54,270 nucleotides of DNA, taken from a bacterium (GTDB taxonomy: Bacteria > UBP6 > UBA1177). Positions within the stretch are counted from its first letter, which is position 1, and the number at the start of each line of letters is the position of its first letter. The notes below the pieces were generated by a model. It worked only from the letters and a program-made list of their open reading frames with translations. It had not been told where the DNA came from and did no database searches. Where the stretch lies: assembly GCA_017645765.1 (NCBI GenBank), contig JAGCNV010000080.1, positions 1 to 54,270 on the forward strand. Direction: 5' to 3'. Positions 3,980 to 17,382 of the stretch are shown piece after piece. Both the position numbers and the translations under genes were made by a program.

Positions 3980-6699
3980 AAATACTGGAACTGGAGTTCA
4001 AAAACATAAATTCACTCTACGGCGAGTGGAAAATCGATTTCACCGACGAAAACTACAGCAGGAACCGCAATATTTTTCTGATCCACGGTCCCACAGGTTC
4101 AGGCAAAACAAGTATTCTCGACGCTATAACGCTTGCGCTTTACGGCAAAACCGCAAGGCAGAAAATCATCAACAAAGGCGATGCAGGGAACGAAGTCATG
4201 ACGCGTGAAACAGGCAGCTGTTATTCGCGCATCACCTACGAAACCGAGGACGGCGTATATATTTCCGAGTGGTCGCAGCGACGTGCTCGGAACAGCGCTT
4301 CAGCCGCACTGAAAGAACCGGAGTATTCAATCAAAGAAAAAAACGGCGAAACGATTTCTTCGGGAAAAGCTTCTTACAACGCTCTGGAAAAGGCGACGAT
4401 AAAAATCGTAAAACTCGATTTCAATCAGTTCTGCCGTTCCGTCATGCTTGCACAGGGCGAATTCAACAAATTCCTTGACTGCGGAGAGAAAGAACGCGCC
4501 GAAATTCTTGAAAAACTGAACCGAAGCGAACGCTATAGAGATATTGCGGTCAAAATCGCGGAGCGCTCAGATGCGGAAGAAAAGAAATGCTTGACGATAA
4601 AAACCAAACTCGATGCCCTGTCAGGCAACATTTTAAGCGATGAAAAACTCAACGGTTTACGCATAGAGCTTGATGAAAATCTGAAACAGCAGCTGGAACT
4701 GAACCGGCAGAAGGAAATTTTGAAGAAAGATCTCATGTGGTATACGGAGTTCGATTCGAAACAAAAAGCTGCGGAAGAGTCAAAACAGGCTTTCGACGAA
4801 GCAAAAGAACGAAAGAGCAGCTTTAAAGAAAAAGAGGAATTTCTCAAACGGGCAGAGCAGGCCGAGTCGTGCAGAGTCCTATACACCGAACTGAAAATCA
4901 TGCGCAGCGACCGGGCAAAAGACATTTCCGCACTTAACACTGTCGGGAAAGAACTTCCGGCAAAAGAAGAAAGTTACAAAAATTCCTTGGAAAAGCTGCA
5001 AAAAGAACAGGGCGTCAGGCAGCAGTTAAGCGCTGAGCAGGAAAAACAGCTTATTTTATGGAATGAAGTAAACAGCCTTGACTCGGATATAAAATCAATA
5101 GAAACGCTGATTTCACGGGACGAAAAGGATCTGGAAAATCACAGGCAGAATGAGAAAAAACTGAAAAACGAGTTATCCGGATACGAGAAAAAATCCGCAG
5201 CTTTGGCAGAATTATCAAAAACATGCGATGAAATCGGGAAAAAAATCATTGAAAAAGAAGCTCAGATTTCAAAAATTTTTGCCGACGAAGGTCTTTTTCT
5301 TGCAGGGCAGCTCGAACTCCGCCTTAAACCGGGAGATATCTGCCCAGTTTGCGGAAACAGCTATCACCGAACCTGTACGGCGGAAGCTGACGATTCCCGC
5401 TTTCACGCCGCAGCCTCGAATTTAAAACAGCTGAGCGATGAACGCGACAGGCTGCTGAAAGAACAGGAGTCCGTAAGAGACAGGATCAGAAAATCAGGGT
5501 CTGAACTTGAATACTGGCAGACAGAAAAAACAAAACAGCTTGCAGATGCAGCGAAAGAGATTGCAGAAAAAGAAAAAAAACTTTCGGAATTGAAGAAAAA
5601 ATGCGGAGATCTGAAAACTCTCCGAAAAGAAAAGTTCGCTGACAAAAATGTTTCCGAAGAAGAAACAAAATTTTTCAAACAGATCAGAAGCAGCGAAGAA
5701 AAGATAAAATATCTTACAGAAACCAAAGATAAACTTTCAAAAGAATTCACCGCTCTGCAGACGAACCGCGAAGCTCTTTTCCGTCGGATAAACGAGCGCG
5801 GAACTCTCTTGGAAGAAAAGGAACGGGAATTTCTGACATTGATCCGGGACAGAAATTTTGCAGATGAAAAAGAATTCCTCGTTTTCCTTCTTGAACCGGA
5901 CAAATTCAGCTCACTCTGCGAAGAGCGGAAAAAAGCAGAGAACGAATTCAATTCCGCTCAGAAAGATGCGGAAAAAACAGAAGCCGTTTTCAAAGATTTT
6001 GCCGGAACAAAAAGACCTTCTATGCCTGACAGGAACGAATGCATAAAGGAAACGGACGAAATCGAAGAAAGAACCGGCATACTGAATCAGAATCTCGGAA
6101 AAATAAACCAGCAGATCAGAGAGAGTGAAAAAAACGGAAATGAGGCGCGTGAAATTCAAAAAGAATATGAGAATCAGAAAAACATCTGTTCAAAGTGGGA
6201 ACAGATGAGAAAATGGATCGGCAACAAGGACGGCTCTACATTTTCCGTGTTTGTCCAGAGCCTGACATTCAGACGGCTCATCGCGATTTCCAACAAATAT
6301 CTTCATCAGATGAAGGAACGCTACACCCTGACTGCAAAAGGCGATCTCGACTTTCAGATAGAGGATGCTAATTTCAGCGAACCGCGCAGCATTTCCAATA
6401 TTTCAGGCGGCGAGCGCTTTCTTGTAAGCCTGTCGCTTGCCTTGGGAATAGCTGAATTTGCAGGCCGGAACATAAAAGTCGACTCGCTTTTTCTTGACGA
6501 AGGTTTCGGAACACTGAGCGGACCTGAACTTTCCAACGTACTCGACACACTCAAGTCGATGCAGAAAAACGGCAAAATGCTCGGCATAATCTCGCACCTT
6601 CCCGCCGTTATCGATGCAATCGAACAAAAAATCGAAGTCGTTCAAGTCCCCGGCGGTCACAGCATTTTAAGGGGAGACGGCATCGAAGGTCCGGAATAA
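3976..6699 (+). CDS. sbcC: SbcC, SMC-like ATPase subunit of SbcCD
   Basis: 907 residues. Rad50-type ATPase that opens and positions DNA for the SbcD nuclease. Walker A GPTGSGKT is at residues 38-45, and a Q-loop-like LAQGEFNKFL lies near 158-167. Long Lys/Glu-rich coiled coils run from about 180 to 450 and 480 to 780, separated by the zinc hook CPVCG (456-460). The ABC signature SGGERF is near 810 and Walker B LFLDEGFG near 840. Length is within the usual range for the family. The start overlaps the sbcD stop (ATGA). A large share of Lys and Glu codons accounts for the A-rich strand here. Confidence 0.95.
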   Translation: MKILELEFKNINSLYGEWKIDFTDENYSRNRNIFLIHGPTGSGKTSILDAITLALYGKTARQKIINKGDAGNEVMTRETGSCYSRITYETEDGVYISEWSQRRARNSASAALKEPEYSIKEKNGETISSGKASYNALEKATIKIVKLDFNQFCRSVMLAQGEFNKFLDCGEKERAEILEKLNRSERYRDIAVKIAERSDAEEKKCLTIKTKLDALSGNILSDEKLNGLRIELDENLKQQLELNRQKEILKKDLMWYTEFDSKQKAAEESKQAFDEAKERKSSFKEKEEFLKRAEQAESCRVLYTELKIMRSDRAKDISALNTVGKELPAKEESYKNSLEKLQKEQGVRQQLSAEQEKQLILWNEVNSLDSDIKSIETLISRDEKDLENHRQNEKKLKNELSGYEKKSAALAELSKTCDEIGKKIIEKEAQISKIFADEGLFLAGQLELRLKPGDICPVCGNSYHRTCTAEADDSRFHAAASNLKQLSDERDRLLKEQESVRDRIRKSGSELEYWQTEKTKQLADAAKEIAEKEKKLSELKKKCGDLKTLRKEKFADKNVSEEETKFFKQIRSSEEKIKYLTETKDKLSKEFTALQTNREALFRRINERGTLLEEKEREFLTLIRDRNFADEKEFLVFLLEPDKFSSLCEERKKAENEFNSAQKDAEKTEAVFKDFAGTKRPSMPDRNECIKETDEIEERTGILNQNLGKINQQIRESEKNGNEAREIQKEYENQKNICSKWEQMRKWIGNKDGSTFSVFVQSLTFRRLIAISNKYLHQMKERYTLTAKGDLDFQIEDANFSEPRSISNISGGERFLVSLSLALGIAEFAGRNIKVDSLFLDEGFGTLSGPELSNVLDTLKSMQKNGKMLGIISHLPAVIDAIEQKIEVVQVPGGHSILRGDGIEGPE

Positions 6700-15910: not shown

Positions 15911-16032
15911 GGAATTTTGTGAGAAATCATCCAAAAACGACCGGAATTTTGTGAAAAACAAATCAAAAAAATACTGGAATTTTGTGAAAATTGTGCTAAA
16001 AGTGGCAGGAATTTTGTGATGAGAGGTCAAAA
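15911..16032 (+). repeat. Four-copy 32-33 bp repeat array before the DUF4143 ATPase gene
   Basis: GGAATTTTGTGA occurs without mismatch at 15911, 15943, 15976 and 16008, spaced 32, 33 and 32 bases. The bases between also share a second element seven or eight bases later: TCCAAAAA, TCAAAAAA, CTAAAAG and TCAAAAA. The fourth copy runs into the ribosome site (GAGAGG) and ends on the ATG at 16033. The spacing is about three helical turns, as expected for a protein binding one face of the DNA. A TATATAGT stretch just upstream may be a -10. Confidence 0.8.
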
Positions 16033-17382
16033 ATGCAAAAACCGCTTTACAGAAAAATTGATGATTTTCTTACTGAATGGAAGAAAAATCCTGACAGACT
16101 TCCCCTTATTGTCAAAGGTGCCAGGCAAGTCGGAAAAACTTTTTCTATCAGGAATTTTGCCAAATCCTACAGAAATTTTGTCGAAATAAACTTCATCGAA
16201 GAACCTAAGTATAAAAATATTTTTTCAAGCGGTTACTCACCCGATTCGGTCATAAAGGAAATCTCGCTGCTGAATCCTGATTTCAAGTTTGTTCCGAAAG
16301 AAACTTTGATTTTCTTTGACGAGATGCAGGCCTGCCCAGACTGCGCCACATGCCTGAAATTCTTTAAAATCGACGGGCGGTACGATGTAATCTGCTCCGG
16401 GTCCATGCTCGGAATAAACTACAACGAAGTGACTTCCGTAAGTGTCGGCTACAAGAGAGATTTAGAGATGCATTCCCTTGATTTTGAGGAATTTCTCATT
16501 GCGAAAGGTTACGCGGAAAGTCAGACCGGAACAATTCTGCAACACATGGAAAATACTGAGTCTTTCAGTCAGACTGAATACGCGGTCTGGAATGAAAACT
16601 TTATGGAATACATGATTCTGGGCGGAATGCCGTCAGTCGTAAAGAAGTTTGTCGGCCAGAAAAATTATTCTGGAACGCTCGATCTTCAAAAGCAGATTCT
16701 CGCAGCCTACAAAGAGGACATAACAAAATATGCCTCCGGCCTTGATAAAGGCAAAATCGTCAATGTTTTCGACAATATTCCCGTTTTTCTGGCGAAGGAA
16801 AACAAAAAATACCAGATATCCAAAATCGCTGTCGGAGCGAGAAACCGCGAGTATGCCGGAACAGTCGAATGGCTCCGTGATGCCGGAATAATCAACATCT
16901 GCCACTGTCTCGAAACACCGGAACTGCCGCTGAAAGGCAACTACAAAGTAAATGATTTCAAGATTTATTTCCGCGACACAGGGCTTTTGATCGCCTCACT
17001 GGACGATGAAGCTCAGGCAGATCTGCGCCGTAACAGAAATTTCAACATATACAAAGGCGCGGTTTATGAAAATGTTGTCGGAGACATTCTGAAAAAACAG
17101 GATTACGATCTTTTTTACTATAAAAATGAAAAATCGACTCTCGAAATGGATTTTTTCGTCCGTGATGCAGACTCACTGATTCCGGTCGAAGTCAAAGCAC
17201 AGGACAGCGCTACCGTTTCTCTGAACAATCTTGTCGAAAAAGAGAAGTATCACGACATAAAATACGGAATAAAATTCTGCGGCAGAAACATCGGATTCAA
17301 CGGAAAGATCTATACTTTTCCGCATTTCTGCGCTCCATGGCTCAAAAGATGGATTTTTGAGACTAAAATTTCGAAGAAATAA
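16033..17382 (+). CDS. AAA-family ATPase with DUF4143 domain
   Basis: 449 residues. N-terminal AAA_14-type P-loop ATPase with Walker A GARQVGKT (29-36) and Walker B LIFFDE (92-97), then a winged-helix-like middle region. The C-terminal DUF4143 region (about 335-400) contains the YENVVGDIL helix and EMDFF followed by VEVKA, which resembles a PD-(D/E)xK nuclease core. Such proteins are common, often multicopy and poorly understood, and have been discussed in connection with mobile and defence contexts. A short GAGAGGTC site precedes the ATG, inside the last copy of the repeat array, which suggests the gene controls its own expression. Confidence 0.85.
   Translation: MQKPLYRKIDDFLTEWKKNPDRLPLIVKGARQVGKTFSIRNFAKSYRNFVEINFIEEPKYKNIFSSGYSPDSVIKEISLLNPDFKFVPKETLIFFDEMQACPDCATCLKFFKIDGRYDVICSGSMLGINYNEVTSVSVGYKRDLEMHSLDFEEFLIAKGYAESQTGTILQHMENTESFSQTEYAVWNENFMEYMILGGMPSVVKKFVGQKNYSGTLDLQKQILAAYKEDITKYASGLDKGKIVNVFDNIPVFLAKENKKYQISKIAVGARNREYAGTVEWLRDAGIINICHCLETPELPLKGNYKVNDFKIYFRDTGLLIASLDDEAQADLRRNRNFNIYKGAVYENVVGDILKKQDYDLFYYKNEKSTLEMDFFVRDADSLIPVEVKAQDSATVSLNNLVEKEKYHDIKYGIKFCGRNIGFNGKIYTFPHFCAPWLKRWIFETKISKK

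Follow-up and report, generated by a model that had tools for sequence, protein, structure and literature searches.

Phased direct-repeat arrays before DUF4143 (PDC-S01) ATPase genes as candidate operators for the proteins that they precede

Why should a bacterial gene for a DUF4143 ATPase be preceded by four identical copies of a short sequence, evenly spaced and running up to its start? The question arises from a stretch of 54,270 nucleotides (the window), in which GGAATTTTGTGA occurs four times without mismatch on the + strand, at positions 15911-15922, 15943-15954, 15976-15987 and 16008-16019, with spacings of 32, 33 and 32 bp, just as an earlier note on this DNA had described. Together these four units of 32-33 bp form a phased, iteron-like direct-repeat array (15911..16032, + strand), the proposed operator of the downstream gene, which is kept in the genus and in other phyla. 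A weaker second element had been placed after every copy, and this element is real but weak: it can be read clearly from the sequence after the first two copies (TCCAAAAA at 15930..15937 on the + strand and TCAAAAAA at 15963-15970), whereas it is degenerate after the third, being just CTAAAAG at 15996-16002, and overlaps the ATG at 16033 after the fourth (TCAAAAAT at 16027-16034). The AAAA run at the position of this element is kept across 19 units from the genus. The last 12-mer had been thought to cover the ribosome site and to end at the ATG. Instead, it ends 13 bp upstream of the ATG with a Shine-Dalgarno-like GAGAGG (16021..16026, + strand, read from the sequence) lying between the two, and it is only the full 32-bp unit, not the last 12-mer, that reaches the start codon.

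The array region is AT-rich, and no further exact copy of GGAATTTTGTGA was found in the 54 kb window beyond the four of the array. The 2.65 Mb genome holds eight exact matches, of which four are the window array, two are an orphan pair on contig C33 that is also spaced at 32 bp, and two are scattered; reversed control patterns of GGAATTTTGTGA gave 0 and 1 matches genome-wide. With six of the eight matches in phased arrays, the random scatter through the genome that the earlier note had weighed against its own reading was not seen. Elsewhere in the window, a tandem repeat finder returned a 9/27/57-bp repeat (GATCCGAAC...) at positions 2056-2312, which is probably coding.

The gene that follows the array (16033..17382, + strand) encodes a protein of 449 aa, and its identification as a DUF4143 ATPase is upheld by Pfam, with an AAA_14 domain (E 4e-22) followed by a DUF4143 domain (E 4.5e-30), both above cut-offs. 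The PADLOC model for PDC-S01 matches residues 5-439 of this protein with E 3.4e-150. PDC-S01 is a predicted anti-phage system whose activity is reported as unvalidated; excerpts of PMC12988326 describe it as a fusion of an ATPase with a PD-(D/E)-X-K domain and report that only three predicted prokaryotic defence systems are more common, and in the rumen it is the most frequent single defence locus (PMC13356809). The AF2 model of the window protein (pLDDT 87.9, pTM 0.89) places an AAA core at the N-terminus and also shows parts that resemble a winged helix and a PD-(D/E)XK fold. The predicted winged-helix DNA-binding domain (residues 239-313; 16747..16971, + strand) is so named from a reading of the secondary structure in the model, where helices are accompanied by a two-strand wing, and the predicted PD-(D/E)XK nuclease fold (residues 338-430; 17044..17322, + strand) draws on the model and on D373, E386 and K388, which are invariant in 40 proteins, so that the predicted nuclease motif is intact. 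The top Foldseek matches, which are whole-fold matches with low TM-scores, were the archaeal AAA+ ATPases 2qen and 2fna, with ORC/Cdc6 proteins next, DNA complexes included. A sequence search for a solved structure of a member gave only P-loop matches to midasin.

In several species of the same genus, an array is found upstream of the same gene even though the sequence further upstream differs. The expectation that homologues would carry related repeats at the same period holds well beyond the genus: some 68-69 loci from other genomes, mostly orthologues of about 60% identity from Bacteroidales, Selenomonadales and Clostridia, almost all have arrays of two to five TGTGA-core copies (AAAATGTGATT in most) that are 31-34 bp apart and lie before the start codon, and 2 of 68 orthologue loci are without one. 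The start codon was set by rule for many homologues, and the sampling was rich in gut and rumen genomes and left out archaea. More distant homologues on plasmids of Segatella copri, Fusobacterium animalis, Vibrio coralliilyticus, Criblamydia, Collinsella and Vescimonas have the same period with different cores, and so do plasmid homologues in Bacteroides thetaiotaomicron and Glaesserella parasuis, where the spacing is 66 bp (twice 33). The array is borderline in a Parabacteroides distasonis homologue, and no array was detected for a Fusobacterium vincentii homologue. The gene and its array recur as a unit in varied genomic surroundings, and on plasmids too.

The phased pair AAAATGTGATT-N20-22-AAAATGTGATT is absent from the 386 genomes sampled around the lineage of the window. 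Among 26 genomes carrying an orthologue, the pair is present in 22 (Bacteroidales) and is located each time at a DUF4143 start (22/22), a few of these pairs having been assigned to DUF4143 loci by agreeing contig positions. Besides these, a single orphan AAAATGTGATT pair was seen in the Bacteroidales genome G401 (locus L272, 1501-1543). Decoy copies of the array in phages were considered and rejected, since the two matches to the phased pair on viral contigs, neither of them beside a DUF4143 gene, were taken as chance.

The genome of the window holds 24 DUF4143 genes, and when the 176 bp upstream of each were scanned for repeat lags against dinucleotide-preserving shuffles, 21 of the 24 had a significant phased array ending near the start codon. 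Fourteen of these arrays have a period of 32/33 bp, four of 23 bp and three of 40-42 bp; for the window array, the scan peaks at a lag of 65, and the 32/33 register comes next. Each gene has its own motif, and the repeat sequences differ among paralogues, examples being TTGAAAAAGTGT, GACTTTGTG, TATTGAAAAGTTGT, TGGAGATTTTGTGA and GAATTTGTAT. All four genome-wide matches to TATTGAAAAGTTGT lie within its own array, and a paired pattern made for one 23-bp array is likewise confined to that array. A regulon or global site was rejected because neither GGAATTTTGTGA nor the motifs of two paralogues are found scattered through the genome. In a set of 50 window-type arrays, the more alike two proteins are, the more alike their motifs tend to be (rho 0.58, p 0.0005), while the same correlation among the 14 paralogues within the genome is rho 0.02. 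Orthologues, then, keep their motif, and paralogues have diverged.

The earlier note had equated the repeat spacing with about three helical turns, which fits the clade of the window, but other clades use 23 or 40-42 bp, and these periods are near, not exact, multiples of the helical turn. Searches seeded by protein similarity rather than by repeats gave small non-redundant sets of homologues, in which, with the seeds from the genome itself counted in, the period was 23 bp in 9 of 12 group B homologues (seeded with proteins of 23-bp arrays) and 40-42 bp in 11 of 24 group C homologues (seeded with proteins of 40-42-bp arrays). Several of these homologues come from distant families, and the tested proteins of groups A, B and C are also strong PDC-S01 matches in PADLOC. 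On a FastTree tree of 135 proteins, the period labels require 24 changes as compared with 63 for shuffled labels, and the arrays of the three period classes require just 2, the minimum possible. Control genes from the same loci had a significant repeat in 27 of 194 cases with scattered lags, and of the two control genes at lag 32, one is an antisense frame lying over an array. The array rule is not family-wide, since a DUF4143 clade of about 400 aa (PVVTITGPRQ) has no direct repeats upstream. That the arrays are private to each gene, with a spacing that goes with the branch of the family, suggests that each protein recognises its own repeats and controls its own gene. In the 40-42 bp clade (upstream regions in L208, L214, L219 and L220), the units look partly palindromic by eye, as in GTTTATNGGGTTATAACCC, and palindromic units would suggest that the protein binds as a dimer.

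Bacteroidales promoters carry a -7 element and Firmicutes promoters a -10 element, each of known consensus form. Among Bacteroidales orthologues, 34 of 57 loci have the -7 motif TANNTTTG with its start 16-18 bp upstream of the last core, and the motif has 40 matches in total as compared with 6 expected. In 7 of 9 Firmicutes orthologues, the last core runs straight into a -10-like hexamer, and because this element is downstream of the last repeat, the whole array is upstream of the transcript. The same operator goes with two promoter grammars. The promoter elements of the orthologues are at fixed offsets to the last copy, and it is by analogy with these phased promoters that we propose an overlap for the window itself, where a candidate extended -10 (TGCTAAAAG, TGC-TAAAAG, or TGnTAAAA in relatives) is situated between core copies 3 and 4 at 15994..16002 on the + strand. 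A sigma-70 scan of the window listed no + strand promoter, this candidate included.

Different arrays for different paralogues, a period that follows the protein clade, and promoter elements phased with the array all favour autoregulation by the cognate ATPase, as the earlier note had supposed. This would be the simplest arrangement because any separate regulator would need to diversify in step with every ATPase and match the spacing of its clade. We therefore regard it as probable that the arrays are iteron-like operators bound by the encoded AAA-winged-helix-nuclease protein, which would repress its own gene. The comparisons establish where the arrays lie, that they are conserved and near-exclusive to these genes, that each gene has its own motif, that the period goes with the clade, and that the arrays overlap promoters; which protein binds, that it represses, whether it does so cooperatively and what releases it are what we infer. 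The ATPase, which has both a predicted winged helix and a predicted PD-(D/E)XK nuclease domain, would bind its own array through the winged helix, probably as a chain of protomers whose spacing, 32/33 bp in this case and 23 or 40-42 bp in the sister clades, is set by the subfamily. Since the last site overlaps the promoter and leader, binding would block RNA polymerase and shut the gene off, and such repression would keep a potentially harmful nuclease low. With each paralogue having its own site sequence, the roughly 20 copies in one genome could be controlled independently, and a gene that is transferred would bring its operator along. The signal for release may be infection.

It could also be that the arrays are operators for another DNA-binding protein, a host regulator that controls the ATPase genes, and arrays without an ATPase gene do exist. 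However, the motif differs for each paralogue and, from phylum to phylum, the period goes with the clade of the ATPase, so that such a regulator would have to co-diversify and travel with the ATPase, and among the listed ORFs no separate regulator gene adjoins the window gene; we consider this reading unlikely. It is less likely still that the repeats work at the RNA level, as sites in the mRNA leader through which translation is controlled. In the window, as in Bacteroidales, the last copy does lie a short way before the start codon, but the Firmicutes -10-like element comes after the last repeat, placing the array upstream of the transcript, and in Bacteroidales all copies except the last are upstream of the inferred -7 element.

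If the array were instead a target or docking site, i.e., a recombination or homing site, a nuclease target, or an iteron by which a mobile element replicates or is partitioned, this would accommodate the iteron-like layout, the resemblance of the protein to AAA+ initiators, the intact predicted nuclease motif, and the presence of the gene-array unit in varied contexts and on plasmids. We think this quite unlikely because GGAATTTTGTGA does not recur 3′ of the gene, the fixed promoter offsets of the orthologues would not be needed at a homing or partition site, and some 20 different arrays in one genome are unexpected for replication origins. Chance or low-complexity repeats might come to mind in a region this rich in AT, but dinucleotide-preserving shuffles do not give such scores, the same period recurs in clades across phyla, and the genome-wide patterns match the arrays almost exclusively; from the shuffles and the conservation we ruled out a chance repeat with near certainty. 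A CRISPR array was also rejected, as 12-bp cores in 32-bp units are too short and the spacers are not unique, having the AAAA in common, and the ORFs listed near the array include no cas genes.

A bolder version of autoregulation, which we offer as speculation and think rather doubtful, is that DUF4143 (PDC-S01) proteins are a large set of self-addressed nuclease-ATPases, each parked on a private array over its own promoter. The array would then both repress the gene and store or position the enzyme, an infection-driven change in the state of the ATPase would release expression and nuclease together, and distinct arrays would keep dozens of such devices independent in each cell.

Archaeal Orc1/Cdc6 proteins have the AAA+ and winged-helix architecture in common with the window protein, and the DNA-bound structures 2qby and 2v1u are among the Foldseek matches. 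Origin recognition boxes lie near cdc6 genes. The present case differs in a TM-score of about 0.3, in having no origin, in an operator over the gene's own promoter, and in an extra PD-(D/E)XK-like domain. In autoregulated toxin-antitoxin systems and restriction-modification controllers, a potentially harmful gene is likewise held low by promoter operators, but the regulator is usually a separate small protein, whereas here the ATPase-nuclease itself carries the predicted winged helix and no partner gene adjoins. With the plasmid Rep iterons (R6K pi, RepE, TrfA) as presented in excerpts of PMC4980987, the likeness is in regular direct repeats near the gene of a winged-helix binder, and pi of R6K is an autorepressor by a reference given there. 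What we found here is regularly spaced tandem direct repeats next to the gene for the proposed binder. The same excerpts give units of 17-22 bp for Rep iterons, in contrast to the periods of 23, 32/33 and 40-42 bp here, and further differences are the roughly 20 different arrays per genome, an AAA+ ATPase with a predicted nuclease domain, and no implied replication function. A chromosome-like context together with about 20 arrays per genome argues against plasmid replication iterons.

Upstream arrays of PDC-S01 are not described in the excerpts of PMC12988326, and in the literature searched there was no description of such repeat arrays, DUF4143 being met in one paper, as a table entry. The arrays provide a concrete, sequence-specific candidate DNA ligand for each PDC-S01 protein, which makes binding, ATP dependence and regulation testable. 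The link between clade and spacing is a natural data set on how an AAA-winged-helix protein sets both repeat spacing and site sequence, and the arrays can be used for correcting start codons and for finding members of the family.

In several species of the genus, two to three window-type repeats form orphan arrays, with no ATPase gene, in the interval from Fic to ybaK (L035 5603-5646, on contig C33, and L038, L044, L045 and L063), and these, like the orphan pair in G401, may be relics or extra targets. The C33 orphan array might be the trace of a lost DUF4143 gene: the 190 bp before it resembles the region upstream of DUF4143 in L064 (77%), but there no ybaK or Fic gene was detected next to the DUF4143 gene. 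The Fic gene, which has a C-terminal winged-helix-like segment, itself has TTGGACGAAAA repeats about 20 bp apart directly before its start (L035 5603-5771, L044 1495-1757), and in the same loci 34-bp palindromes, TTTTCGTCC...GGACGAAAA, lie to either side. Self-operators of this type may also be in use at Fic genes. Tandem repeats of 12-13 bp were also seen upstream of two genes (L065, minus strand near 4649; L128, minus strand near 753) whose N-termini look like those of AlbA_2-type regulators (ETLEFKK), possibly another self-operator family. In L111 (minus strand, around 5807), inverted-repeat units make up a 54-bp repeat ahead of the gene for a 481-residue ATPase that looks to be of the archaeal ATPase_2 type.
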